Below are positions 30,726-50,204 of a stretch of 64,000 nt of DNA, piece after piece (positions within the stretch are counted from its first letter, which is position 1; every line of letters starts with the position of its first letter). The notes beneath the pieces were generated by a model that saw only the letters and a program-made list of their open reading frames with translations, ran no database searches and had not been told where the DNA came from. The translations under genes and the position numbers were made by a program. The DNA lies in assembly GCF_001046635.1 (NCBI RefSeq), contig NZ_KQ130454.1, forward strand, positions 131,501 through 195,500, in the 5' to 3' direction. Source of the stretch: Novosphingobium barchaimii LL02 (GTDB taxonomy: Bacteria; Pseudomonadota; Alphaproteobacteria; Sphingomonadales; Sphingomonadaceae).

Positions 30726-30752
30726 GGAACATTCGATCGCGATGTGTGTTCC
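30726..30752. promoter_or_regulatory. Bidirectional EcfG-type promoter (crp-like / bphO-bphP)
   Basis: GGAAC (30726-30730), 17 bp, GTTCC (30748-30752). Read on either strand it is GGAAC-N17-GTT. On the plus strand the predicted start is about 55 nt before bphO. Same architecture as 46089-46115 and 49304-49330. Confidence 0.6.
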
Positions 30753-43854: not shown

Positions 43855-44319
43855 ATGGACAAGGACATTCGCGAGACTTTCTGGAAGTCGTTCCAGACCA
43901 GCCCCTTCATCATGATCAAGCTGGACGGCGCCCCCGGGCATGCTGAACCGATGACCGCCCAACTCGACAAGGAAGCGCATCACGCTGTCTGGTTCTTCGC
44001 CAAGCGGGACAACCGTATCGCCCCCGGCGGCAAGGCGATGGGCCAGGTCATGACCAAGGGCCATGACGTATTCGCCTGCATCGACGGCACGATCGTGGAG
44101 GAAACCGATCCCGCCCTGCGCGACAAGCACTGGAACAATGCCGTCGAGGCCTGGTTCCCCAATGGCAAGACCGATCCTTCGGTCGTGATGCTGCGCTTCG
44201 ACATCCAGGACGGCGAAGTCTGGACCGCGGACATGGGCATCAAGGACGTCTTCAAGCTTTTGACCGGCAAGCCCATTCACGGGCAGGACGCCGGCGAACA
44301 CGCGCTCGGCGCGGTCTGA
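43855..44319 (+). CDS. General stress protein, pyridoxamine-5'-phosphate-oxidase fold
   Basis: 154 residues of the split-barrel flavin-binding fold (general stress protein 26 type): FQTSPFIMIKLDG, HAVWFFAKRDNRIAPGG, GQVMTKGHDVFACIDGTIVEETDPALRDKHWNNAVEAWFPNGKTDPSVVMLRF. GAGGA is 7 nt before the ATG. A full EcfG-type promoter is upstream. Probably binds a flavin or deazaflavin; substrate unknown. Confidence 0.88.
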   Translation: MDKDIRETFWKSFQTSPFIMIKLDGAPGHAEPMTAQLDKEAHHAVWFFAKRDNRIAPGGKAMGQVMTKGHDVFACIDGTIVEETDPALRDKHWNNAVEAWFPNGKTDPSVVMLRFDIQDGEVWTADMGIKDVFKLLTGKPIHGQDAGEHALGAV

Positions 44320-45103: not shown

Positions 45104-45787
45104 TCAGGCAGCCAGCAGACTGCGGCTCTGCACCATCTTGGGGTCGACGTTGGCAACCTTAAGAAGTTCGCCGAAGAAAGCGTCGATCGCATCGCCGGTG
45201 AGGACGAAGTTGTGGCGGAAGTCGGGGAGCTGGCCGGATTCGATGATCTTGGACAGCATCGCGCGGGCGCGGCAGATGCGGCTCTTCACGGTGCCCAGTG
45301 CGATGCCGCAGATATCGGCGATTTCCTCGTAAGAGAGATTGCCGGCGGCGACGAGCACCAGCGCTTCACGGTAGCTTGCGGGAATGGCGGTCAGTGCCCG
45401 CAGGACATCGGCCAGTTCGACCGCGCTTTCCTGGCTGGCTTCCGCCCGCAGGATACGCTCTGCAGCCAGTTCGTCGTACTCGCCATGGAAGCGGGCACGG
45501 CGGGCTTCGGAGTAGAAGTGGTTGCGCAGGATCGTGAAGGTCCATGCCTTGAAGTTGGTGCCCGCGGCATAACGCTCACGCGCGGCCCATGCGCGCAGCA
45601 TGGCTTCCTGCGCAAGATCGTCTGCGCGGTCGCGGCAGCCGCAAAGGCCACGAGCGAATGCACGAAGGTGAGGGGCCACGTCAGCCAGTGCGCGCTTGAA
45701 GTCGCGGTCGTTAAGCGCGACCTTGATTTCAGCCGCCACCGTCTCAGGCTGCTCTGCCTCGACGTTTGCTTCGATCGTTGCCGACAT
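45104..45787 (-). CDS. ECF sigma factor, second EcfG-like paralogue
   Basis: 227 residues. Region 2: HLRAFARGLCGCRDRADDLAQEAMLRAWAARERYAAGTNFKAWTFTILRNHFYSEARRARF; region 4: IPASYREALVLVAAGNLSYEEIADICGIALGTVKSRICRARAML. It is similar in pattern to the EcfG at 49647 but has a 40-residue N-terminal and a 35-residue C-terminal extension. ATG 45787 has GGAGGG 7 nt upstream. An EcfG-type promoter precedes it, so it is probably part of the general stress regulon. Confidence 0.92.
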   Translation of the reverse strand: MSATIEANVEAEQPETVAAEIKVALNDRDFKRALADVAPHLRAFARGLCGCRDRADDLAQEAMLRAWAARERYAAGTNFKAWTFTILRNHFYSEARRARFHGEYDELAAERILRAEASQESAVELADVLRALTAIPASYREALVLVAAGNLSYEEIADICGIALGTVKSRICRARAMLSKIIESGQLPDFRHNFVLTGDAIDAFFGELLKVANVDPKMVQSRSLLAA

Positions 45788-45821: not shown

Positions 45822-45847
45822 AACGTCACCGGATCGAAATTGGTTCC
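45822..45847 (-). promoter_or_regulatory. EcfG-type promoter for the second ECF sigma gene
   Basis: Minus strand GGAAC (45847-45843), 17 bp, CGTT (45825-45822), full consensus, about 35 bp before the start codon. Confidence 0.65.
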
Positions 45848-45989
45848 CGAAATGTGACATTTACCTGCACGCATGTTCAGGAAACCCACGACTGTTTCTT
45901 CTCAAACCCCGCAACAGCAGGCTTTGCAGCATTTCCAGCAGGATCGAAGAAAGTTTTTTCACACCCCGGCCGGAACAAGCGCGGCCCAG

Positions 45990-46086
45990 AAACTTTGAGG
46001 CCTCCGTCCACCATGTCGGTAAACGAAGGCCTCGGGATCGGGTCATCACCGGTTGCGGGGGGGTGGGGGAGCCGGTGATGACAATG
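45990..46086 (-). ncRNA. Candidate GsrN-like stress sRNA with C-rich loop
   Basis: A minus-strand transcript from the EcfG-type site at 46089-46115 would start near 46085 and meet a perfect 11-bp stem (GTCATCACCGG, 46082-46072 with 46052-46042 on the minus strand) whose 19-nt loop is CUCCCCCACCCCCCCGCAA. A second stem, GAGGCCT with AGGCCTC (46033-46027 and 46003-45997), follows. Caulobacter GsrN is a GSR sigma-dependent sRNA with an exposed C-rich loop. Ends are inferred; no strong T-tract is seen after the second stem, so the 3' end is uncertain. Confidence 0.4.
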
Positions 46087-46088
46087 AG

Positions 46089-46115
46089 GGAACGTGACAC
46101 CCCGCGGTTGGTTCC
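46089..46115. promoter_or_regulatory. Bidirectional EcfG-type promoter (phyR / candidate sRNA)
   Basis: GGAAC (46089-46093), 17 bp, GTTCC (46111-46115). The minus-strand reading is a full GGAAC-N16-CGTT; the plus-strand reading is GGAAC-N17-GTT and would drive phyR from about 140 bp upstream. Confidence 0.6.
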
Positions 46116-46259
46116 CGAAAAAGCGGTCTACCGTAAAAAATTTTCCGGTTGCCCTATCTGTGCTGCGGAGTCAGACAAATGACATTGGCCCACAGGCGCA
46201 AGGGGCGCCCAACGACGTGCAATCGGGAATGACTTCCCAAAAAGGCCTGAGGAACATGA

Positions 46260-47051
46260 ATGTCCGTTTCTGATCAGATCGCCATACAGCTGCCCTACTT
46301 GCGGCGCTACGCACGCGCCTTGACGGGTTCGCAGCAATCGGGCGACGCTTATGTACGCGCAACGCTCGAAGCGGCGCTTGCCGACCGCTCGCTGCGCGAA
46401 GCGATCGCGCACAGCCGCGCGGCGCTTTACGGCGCCTTCACCCGCATCTGGGCGACAAGCCATGTCGAGGAGCCCAGCATGGGCGGCGCCGGCCTGCACG
46501 AACAGGCTGCGCAGGAGCGCCTCTCCACGATCGCGCCAACGCACCGTCAGGCCCTGCTTTTGACCACCGTCGAGGAATTCTCGCGCGAGGAAACCGCGCA
46601 GATCCTCGATCTCTCGGTCGGGCAAATCGATGCCCTGGTCAGCCAGGCCATCCTCGAAATCGAGGGTGAAAGCGCGACGCAGGTTCTCATCATCGAGGAC
46701 GAGCCGCTCATCTCCATGCAGCTCGAAGGCCTCGTCACCGATCTGGGCCATACCGTGGTCGGCACCGCTGCCACCCATGCCCAGGCGGTCGAAATCTTCT
46801 CGCGCCATCCAGCCGGCCTCGTGCTTGCGGATATCCAGCTTGCAGACGGCAGCTCGGGCATCGACGCGGTTGAAGACCTGCTCAAGTTCGGCGACGTGCC
46901 GGTAATCTTCATCACCGCCTACCCGGAACGCCTCCTCACCGGGGAGCGGCCCGAGCCGACCTACCTGGTGACCAAGCCTTTCCAGGAAGCAACCGTGCGC
47001 GCTTCGATCAGCCAGGCGCTGTTCTTCAATTCAAGCCGGTCGGTAGCCTGA
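46260..47051 (+). CDS. phyR: PhyR, anti-anti-sigma response regulator of the general stress response
   Basis: 263 residues: an N-terminal sigma-like domain (about 1-130; LPYLRRYARALTGSQQSGDAYVRATLE and APTHRQALLLTTVEEFSREETAQILDLSVGQIDALV) and a C-terminal receiver (LIIEDEPLISMQLEGLV, phosphoacceptor in VLADIQLADGSSG, VIFITAYPE, VTKPF). When phosphorylated it binds NepR and frees EcfG. GAGGA 6-7 nt before ATG 46260. Adjacent to the kinase, nepR and ecfG as in other alphaproteobacteria. Confidence 0.97.
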   Translation: MSVSDQIAIQLPYLRRYARALTGSQQSGDAYVRATLEAALADRSLREAIAHSRAALYGAFTRIWATSHVEEPSMGGAGLHEQAAQERLSTIAPTHRQALLLTTVEEFSREETAQILDLSVGQIDALVSQAILEIEGESATQVLIIEDEPLISMQLEGLVTDLGHTVVGTAATHAQAVEIFSRHPAGLVLADIQLADGSSGIDAVEDLLKFGDVPVIFITAYPERLLTGERPEPTYLVTKPFQEATVRASISQALFFNSSRSVA

Positions 47052-49303: not shown

Positions 49304-49330
49304 GGAACCATGCTCGACGTGGATTGTTCC
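49304..49330. promoter_or_regulatory. Bidirectional EcfG-type promoter (nepR-ecfG / HWE kinase)
   Basis: GGAAC (49304-49308), 17 bp, GTTCC (49326-49330). Reads GGAAC-N17-GTT on both strands. Provides positive autoregulation of nepR-ecfG and of the kinase. Confidence 0.65.
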
Positions 49331-49480
49331 AATGATCAAACGACGTCTGTCCGGCTTGCAGGAAGACGAAATCCGAGCAGCGCCCGCCCCCGGCCCTTGT
49401 GCCCCAAAGCGAGATAGCGCACCGGGCTTGACCGTACCCCGGTCTCACAGCAAGTGTGCTTCGGTGAAAGGGAGTTCGTG

Positions 49481-49666
49481 TTGAGTCAGCCCAATGGACG
49501 TGGTGATCCCGGCAGGGTGCCGGGCCTGCCGCCGGAAGTCCGCAGAGACGGTGAACCCGGCTGGGCCGGGGGGTTGAGGAAGCTGTATAACTCCGTCGTG
49601 GAGGAACCGCTGCCGGACAGCTTCAAGGACCTCCTGAAGAAGCTGGATGATCCAGGCGATGCCTGA
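49481..49666 (+). CDS. nepR: NepR anti-sigma factor
   Basis: About 61 residues; the diagnostic core LRKLYNSVVEEPLPDSFKDLLKKLDD is at the C-terminal half, the helix pair that clamps EcfG and PhyR. TTG 49481 has GGGAG 6 nt upstream; GTG 49478 is an alternative. Overlaps ecfG by 20 bp or 8 bp depending on the ecfG start, indicating coupling. In the family, NepR holds EcfG inactive in the absence of stress. Confidence 0.93.
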   Translation: MSQPNGRGDPGRVPGLPPEVRRDGEPGWAGGLRKLYNSVVEEPLPDSFKDLLKKLDDPGDA

Positions 49667-50204
49667 GCGGATCAAGGCTTCCCCCGCCGACGAGGGATTT
49701 CGCCTGGAACTGCTCTCAGTCCTGCCTCACCTCCGCGCATTTGCCCGCGGCCTGTCCGGTCGCCCGGATTTTGCCGACGACCTCGTACAAGAAGCCGCAA
49801 TCAAGGCCTGGACCGCGCGGGAGCGGTATCAGGCCGGCACCAACATGCGGGCCTGGACCTTCGCGATCCTGCGTAACCACTACCTTTCCGAACTGCGGCG
49901 CTCGCGGCGCCAGACCGACCTGGACGAGGGCGTGGCCGAGCGCATGCTGGTCATGGAGCCTGACCAGGAAGGCCCGCTGCACCTGGGCGACATGGAAGTG
50001 GCGCTCCAGAAACTCGCGCCTGAACGGCGTGAGGCAGTGCTTCTGGTTGGCGCTTCCGGCTTCAGTTATGAGGAAGCCGCGGAAATCGCGGGTTGCCCGA
50101 TTGGAACGATGAAAAGCCGCGTCGCCCGTGCCCGCGCCGATCTGGCCCGGATGCTGGAAGGCGAACTCGACGCGCTCGACATCAAGAAGCGCAAGACGGG
50201 TTGA
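49647..50204 (+). CDS. ecfG: ECF sigma factor EcfG, master regulator of the general stress response
   Basis: 185 residues (start ATG 49647 or 49659). Region 2 LPHLRAFARGLSGRPDFADDLVQEAAIKAWTARERYQAGTNMRAWTFAILRNHYLSELRRSRRQTD and region 4 LAPERREAVLLVGASGFSYEEAAEIAGCPIGTMKSRVARARADLARM are typical of EcfG sigma factors. It would read GGAAC...GTT promoters. Its 3' end overlaps the convergent MFS gene by 23 bp. Confidence 0.96.
   Translation: MIQAMPERIKASPADEGFRLELLSVLPHLRAFARGLSGRPDFADDLVQEAAIKAWTARERYQAGTNMRAWTFAILRNHYLSELRRSRRQTDLDEGVAERMLVMEPDQEGPLHLGDMEVALQKLAPERREAVLLVGASGFSYEEAAEIAGCPIGTMKSRVARARADLARMLEGELDALDIKKRKTG

Follow-up and report, generated by a model that had tools for sequence, protein, structure and literature searches.

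The window analyzed here is a stretch of 64,000 nucleotides of Novosphingobium barchaimii LL02. Its plus strand carries phyR (46260-47051; Pfam PhyR_sigma2, PhyR_sigma-like and Response_reg), nepR (49454-49666; Pfam NepR) and ecfG (49647-50204; Pfam Sigma70_r2 and Sigma70_r4_2). A second EcfG-like ECF sigma gene with Pfam Sigma70_r2 and Sigma70_r4_2 lies on the minus strand (45104-45787). We chose the ATG at 45787 as the start of this gene, from which many related loci align; the list of open reading frames gives a longer frame from a GTG. According to Pfam, PhyR, NepR, the two sigma factors of the EcfG class, a response regulator and an HWE kinase are all encoded within 6 kb of one another in the window, a set that identifies a general stress response (GSR) locus. 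The PhyR-NepR-EcfG switch is well established. Between phyR and the second sigma gene, the initial annotation had placed a candidate small RNA in a region free of genes. Both flanks are borne out by Pfam, and no conserved protein gene was found within the stretch of the RNA.

Promoter and predicted fold of the RNA

The minus-strand consensus promoter for the GSR sigma factor proposed in the same annotation, GGAAC-N16-CGTT, is present at 46115-46091 and is referred to here as P1, the putative EcfG-type promoter of the RNA. Taken by itself, this pattern match is weak evidence, since the window holds 5 instances of the pattern when its gap may range from 15 to 18 nt, where 2.1 would be expected, and 8 of 100 shuffled sequences also reach 5. 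The position of P1 is nevertheless fixed, as every one of the 97 aligned copies has GGAAC 33-34 nt ahead of the RNA start. The covariance model that detected the 67 copies outside the Novosphingobium type (R1) contains no promoter. In copies of the Novosphingobium type the -10 box reads CGTT in 28 of 30; among the 67 others it is CATT in 59. Passages of a study of the EcfG regulon of Sphingopyxis granuli describe GSR promoters of this class as well (GGAAC-N16-CGTT); their -10 is flexible, as many as 14 variants being reported for Sphingopyxis, of which CGTT is the most frequent (PMC7083833). The terms sRNA, small RNA and GsrN are all absent from the main text of that study. One copy (L028/L172), situated 51 nt from a contig end and excluded from the alignment, is without an exact GGAAC.

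Read in reverse, P1 yields GGAAC-N16-GGTT on the plus strand (46089-46113), a possible second phyR promoter that is found in 14 of the 30 Novosphingobium-type copies. GGAAC...GTTCC palindromes from which an EcfG-type promoter can be read on both strands occur in the window at 30726-30752, 44132-44158, 46089-46115 and 49304-49330; the last of these is located between the HWE kinase gene and nepR-ecfG, and the one at 44132-44158 within a reading frame. At 46135-46144, 20-29 nt upstream of the -35 box of P1, the plus strand has an A/T tract, AAAAAATTTT, that might serve as an UP element. Tracts of this kind can be made out by eye in many of the other loci.

The RNA is predicted to extend over about 94 nt on the minus strand (45990-46083), with both ends placed from promoter spacing and structure. 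Hairpin 1 (46042-46082), for which the predicted fold is backed by compensatory changes, starts at 46082, 8 nt past the -10 box of P1. The annotation had described a perfect 11-bp stem with a 19-nt loop within about 10 nt of the promoter, and this element is indeed there: an 11-bp stem carries the C-rich loop CUCCCCCACCCCCCCGCAA of 19 nt at 46071-46053. In the predicted fold, a single-stranded linker of 8 nt, CCGATCCC, follows at 46034-46041. The second stem turned out to be stronger than claimed, hairpin 2 (45997-46033) forming a perfect predicted stem of 16 bp from 46033 to 45997. The window sequence then ends the RNA with the tail AAAGTTT (AAAGUUU in the RNA; 45996-45990). A stretch of 118 nt folds at -58.4 kcal/mol, compared with -41.6 ± 3.2 kcal/mol for shuffled sequences (z -5.3), a value equalled by none of 200 shuffles.

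Distribution, covariation and linkage to phyR

A BLAST search with the stretch comprising promoter and RNA found matches in 55 of 195 Novosphingobium genomes. R1, built from 26 of these RNAs with the promoter left out, found the RNA in 154 of the family's 397 genomes, which represent 39 of its 91 genera; the limits of the family are those set by the search tool. A second model, R2, built from 97 copies, matched 166 genomes in 44 genera of the family; the five additional genera gave weak matches (E 4e-6 to 7e-4) and are excluded from the genus count. No such RNA was seen at the phyR loci from four of these R2-only genera (5 genomes), nor at 14 phyR loci from 13 other RNA-negative, PhyR-bearing genomes. 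Scan matches at two RNA-negative phyR loci, L148 and L157, bear no resemblance to the sRNA and were dismissed.

A pattern scan of named genomes gave at least 120 stretches. Among the matches listed from it, 80 loci were run through R2, and 22 of these hold the RNA at E <1e-10. Twenty of these listed loci belong to Novosphingobium, one to Alteraurantiacibacter buctensis (Erythrobacteraceae) and one to a Pseudomonadota assembly. GGAAC is again found 33-34 nt upstream in 20 of the 22, the exceptions being L234, which starts at the edge of the fetched stretch, and the N. clariflavum copy (L172) mentioned above at a contig end.

Across 387 genomes drawn from the class, R1 gave a single weak match outside the family. 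R2, run on the same sample at E 0.05, matched 33 genomes, 27 of them outside the family; the sequences read from these (L107-L120) resemble unrelated terminators, L065 excepted. The match at L065 (1501-1578; genome G771, outside the family; R2, E 2.5e-7) is RNA-like: its loop is CCCCCCCTCCCTGCAA, its stem is similar, and it has a terminator with a T run. The 70 nt upstream of it contain no GGAAC, and phyR is absent from the 3 kb that were fetched. Apparent second copies within one genome were also rejected: L136 proved to be an ordinary terminator behind a different gene, L135 appears to represent the same place in a close relative, and L137 is weak. The plasmid collection gave no match to the RNA. 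A scan of viral contigs for PhyR returned one distant protein.

In the 97-copy alignment the structure holds in 95% of cells, and 18 of 24 pairs are changed on both sides. The alignment contains 238 compensatory cells, compared with a mean of 51 after shuffling and at most 51 with the pairing partner slid along; because it was fitted to the structure, it leans towards that structure, and related sequences beat shuffles more easily. A first MAFFT alignment of 26 closer relatives had already shown 7 pairs with changes on both sides. Stem changes in both hairpins are compensatory, one-sided G-U forms included. Conservation of stem and C-rich loop in relatives, which the initial annotation had named among the tests on which its proposal should stand or fall, was thus found, together with compensatory changes. 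It is this conservation that places the observation far above chance.

The linker motif CGATCC is kept in 90 of the 97 copies. The loop comes in two types: CCCTCCCGTCC is present in all 67 copies outside the Novosphingobium type and in none of the 30 within it. In the latter, the C-run of the loop varies by single bases, its longest run ranging from 6 to 11. Hairpin 2 likewise differs in loop length from copy to copy. Five loci from the genus of the window (L040 and L093-L096) carry the CCCTCCCGTCC loop type of other genera and have no adjacent sigma gene.

All 97 aligned copies have phyR divergently upstream. Within the fetched DNA, phyR lies divergently upstream in 94 of the 97 loci, at a distance of 133-298 bp in 79 of them and of about 1 kb in 15. 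Genome coordinates place it 1.4-1.6 kb upstream in the remaining three (L040, L094 and L095); in L040 and L095 the gene between phyR and the RNA is one that we take to be Crp-like. Among the window and the 30 first-fetched loci, phyR is divergent in all except L028 (contig end). We further compared the occurrence of RNA and PhyR in 80 Novosphingobium genomes. These were not sampled at random from the 195, some of them had served to build the models, and the counts are uncorrected for kinship. The RNA was found in 64 of them and PhyR in 70. With a close PhyR defined as a match of E 1e-70 or better, a threshold chosen with the results already in view, 63 genomes have both RNA and close PhyR, 15 have neither, and one falls each way: G028 has a close PhyR with no RNA match, and G012 has the RNA, at a contig end, with no close PhyR. 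Nine of the 80 genomes have neither PhyR nor RNA, and six more have a distant PhyR only and no RNA; G007, G019 and G078 are examples from the 16 RNA-less genomes. This pattern suggests loss or replacement of the locus in these 16 Novosphingobium genomes.

Overall, there is strong support for reading the stretch as an sRNA, structured, conserved and placed together with its EcfG-type promoter in the GSR locus.

The sigma gene, termination and competing readings

Downstream of the RNA, a further putative EcfG-type promoter, P2 (GGAAC-N17-CGTT; 45822-45847, minus strand; pattern match), precedes the second sigma gene. The gene is found downstream on the same strand in the window and in the 30 first-fetched loci (31/31). 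With a cut-off of 60% identity, a search of the fetched stretches finds it in 30 of the 97 loci, all of the Novosphingobium type, and in none of the 67 others. Termination was assessed from T runs in the segment between nt 61 of the RNA and the position 20 nt past its end. A run of at least 4 occurs in 63 of the 67 copies outside the Novosphingobium type and in 11 of the 30 within it, the longest run hence being 3 or shorter in 19 of these 30. The window copy has three T after hairpin 2, with no canonical U-run, and is absent from the terminator scan. Because the U-tract is short, termination is uncertain in the window and in most Novosphingobium-type copies.

On the plus strand, a candidate antisense promoter, P3 (GGAAC-N16-CTTT; 45972-45996), is directed through the sRNA towards phyR and was assigned from its conserved GGAAC. 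The GGAAC occurs here in 29 of the 30 Novosphingobium-type copies (28 of 29 in a separate count), L030 being the copy that is without it. It starts 15-16 nt beyond the aligned end of the RNA and 16-17 nt from an NNTT box that overlaps the RNA tail. The -10 reads CTTT, not CGTT, in 20 of 29 copies, and the bases between and beyond the boxes are less conserved. Outside the Novosphingobium type, a P3-like site 3' of the RNA was found in 1 of 67 copies; in these copies, 40 phyR-strand sites of the GSR type lie on the phyR side of the RNA, nearly all of them ending in CGTT.

Four other readings of the stretch were weighed. An open frame of 79 codons' worth of protein (79 aa; 46100-45861, minus strand) appears in the list of reading frames and might be taken for a short protein-coding gene. 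The C-run varies freely in length, and changes by single bases would break any frame; the length of the hairpin 2 loop varies as well. The coding reading is rejected on this ground and retains next to no probability. The RNA itself is a prediction, which leaves room for a DNA-level element or for chance hairpins devoid of RNA function. Such an element would hardly account for compensatory stem changes that include G-U forms or for a promoter held at a fixed position, and we consider it highly improbable. More can be said for a 5' leader or attenuator of the sigma gene, in which the P1 transcript would cross the hairpins and these would set read-through or translation: the sigma gene lies downstream on the same strand in 31 of 31 loci, and the weak U-tract in most such copies makes read-through plausible. 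However, P2, the sigma gene's own promoter, is present between RNA and gene start in all 29 Novosphingobium-type loci tested, with CGTT in 28. The 67 copies that have no sigma gene still keep both promoter and RNA, and in 63 of them a T run of at least 4. For these reasons we read the RNA as a gene and not as a leader; the leader reading appears improbable. The RNA thus seems to be a stand-alone gene, with read-through possible in Novosphingobium.

P3 allows yet another reading. If it is a promoter, the phyR mRNA of Novosphingobium would begin with an antisense copy of the sRNA, and the sRNA could act mainly in cis on this P3-started transcript instead of by its loop on distant mRNAs. A phyR-strand GGAAC at 16-17 nt from a -10-like NNTT in 29 of 30 copies, flanked by less conserved bases, speaks for such a sense/antisense pair. 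Against it stand the mostly CTTT -10 box of P3 and the near-absence of P3-like sites outside the type. With one 3' site in 67 copies and 40 sites on the phyR side, the RNA evidently needs no P3, and a mainly cis-acting role strikes us as quite improbable. A further arrangement, in Novosphingobium, is tentatively conceivable, although we think it rather unlikely. One sigma factor would drive both strands there, and a P3-started phyR leader would be a perfect antisense of the sRNA, so that the two might titrate each other; phyR transcription would time the sRNA, and the sRNA would limit PhyR, amounting to a stress shut-off. The weak U-tract might then be the price of the P3 -10 box and the different loop the mark of a new partner. 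That both features occur in the same group fits such a rebuilding around P3.

Comparison with GsrN and proposed role

The initial annotation had regarded the RNA as a functional analogue or a homologue of GsrN. As described in passages of Tien, Fiebig and Crosson (2018, PMC5869019), GsrN of Caulobacter crescentus is transcribed from a GSR-sigma promoter, measures about 100 nt, has a 5' hairpin with a C-rich loop and a 3' intrinsic terminator, and has homologues that typically lie near GSR genes; the promoter, length, C-rich loop, position and 3' hairpin found here are similar. In the same passages, GsrN pairs by its C-rich loop with G-rich mRNA stretches and activates katG, its validated target. 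GsrN is also reported there to be cleaved internally near nt 53, which is close to the linker of the present RNA at nt 42-49. Homology is not borne out. Class-wide covariance searches gave no convincing match outside the family, and no sequence or covariance relation to GsrN was detectable in these searches, which were run with the family models R1 and R2. The loops also differ, being CUCCCCCACCCCCCC here and CCCCCCUCCCGUCC in other genera as opposed to that of GsrN. katG was rejected as a shared target: it is absent from 3 of 20 RNA-bearing genomes, among them the nearest relative of the window in the set, and a run of four G within 45 nt upstream of the assigned katG start was found at 4 of 25 katG loci, the starts having been assigned automatically and some of them being doubtful. 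The RNA is likely an analogue of GsrN, which it resembles in design.

Putative GsrN-like RNAs of Rhizobiaceae and relatives were placed by similar features, namely promoter, position at the GSR locus and an exposed C-rich 5' loop; in the relevant passages, three of them are assigned from transcriptome data together with promoter and position, and two from position and promoter alone (PMC5869019). The RNA described here shares the proximity to ecfG, nepR and phyR and, in its predicted structure, is a short RNA with a 5' hairpin and an exposed C-rich loop.

Searches against Rfam gave no match at the gathering score in the window or in 10 relatives, and weak listings at relaxed thresholds. One of the models, RF01521 (CC1840, a Caulobacter sRNA), likewise comprises two hairpins, the first with a C-rich loop, and aligns over its full length to one of the relatives (L041, 1515-1601, minus strand). 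The alignment scores 22.4 bits (E 0.2) where the gathering score is 50, so it does not constitute a match, and the family is not listed for the window. Unrelated families score equally low, e.g., Ms1 with 17.9 of 162 bits (E 0.004). In the open-licence literature of PubMed Central we found no description of this RNA.

To look for partners of the loop, perfect complements of 10 nt were searched in 12 genomes. This gave 44 matches, 12 of them the gene of the RNA itself, compared with 85 for the reversed control. Matches to the loop complement are not enriched in these 12 genomes and are, if anything, depleted. Loci were read for 30 of the 44 matches: the RNA gene accounts for 11 of them, and no gene recurs among the remaining 19. 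Short seeds such as those used by GsrN would escape a search for 10-nt complements. We infer pairing through the loop, by analogy, because a conserved loop sits on stems that are free to change.

Promoter, structure, conservation, linkage to phyR and independence from the sigma gene can all be read from the genomic DNA, and we regard it as probable that the stretch is a stand-alone, trans-acting sRNA gene of the alphaproteobacterial GSR. Under stress, PhyR would free EcfG from NepR, and EcfG would then transcribe the RNA of about 94 nt from P1. The transcript would display its C-rich loop on the 5' hairpin, followed by the unpaired linker and by the 3' hairpin that ends it. The loop could pair with G-rich, Shine-Dalgarno-like stretches of mRNAs and alter their translation or stability. 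In this way, a post-transcriptional arm would be added to the stress response, and the RNA might serve as the feed-forward branch suggested in the initial annotation.

Passages of Tien et al. make the case that sRNAs driven by EcfG are prevalent in the stress response of Alphaproteobacteria and report no apparent gsrN-like gene in an Erythrobacter out-group (PMC5869019). The present analysis adds a defined, covarying RNA family that keeps its position next to phyR across 39 genera of a single bacterial family, a carrier from the Erythrobacteraceae included. The RNA gives a concrete locus for work on promoter, deletion and targets in bacteria such as Novosphingobium, and its two loop types, carried on compensating stems, provide a natural experiment on how sRNAs with C-rich loops choose their targets.
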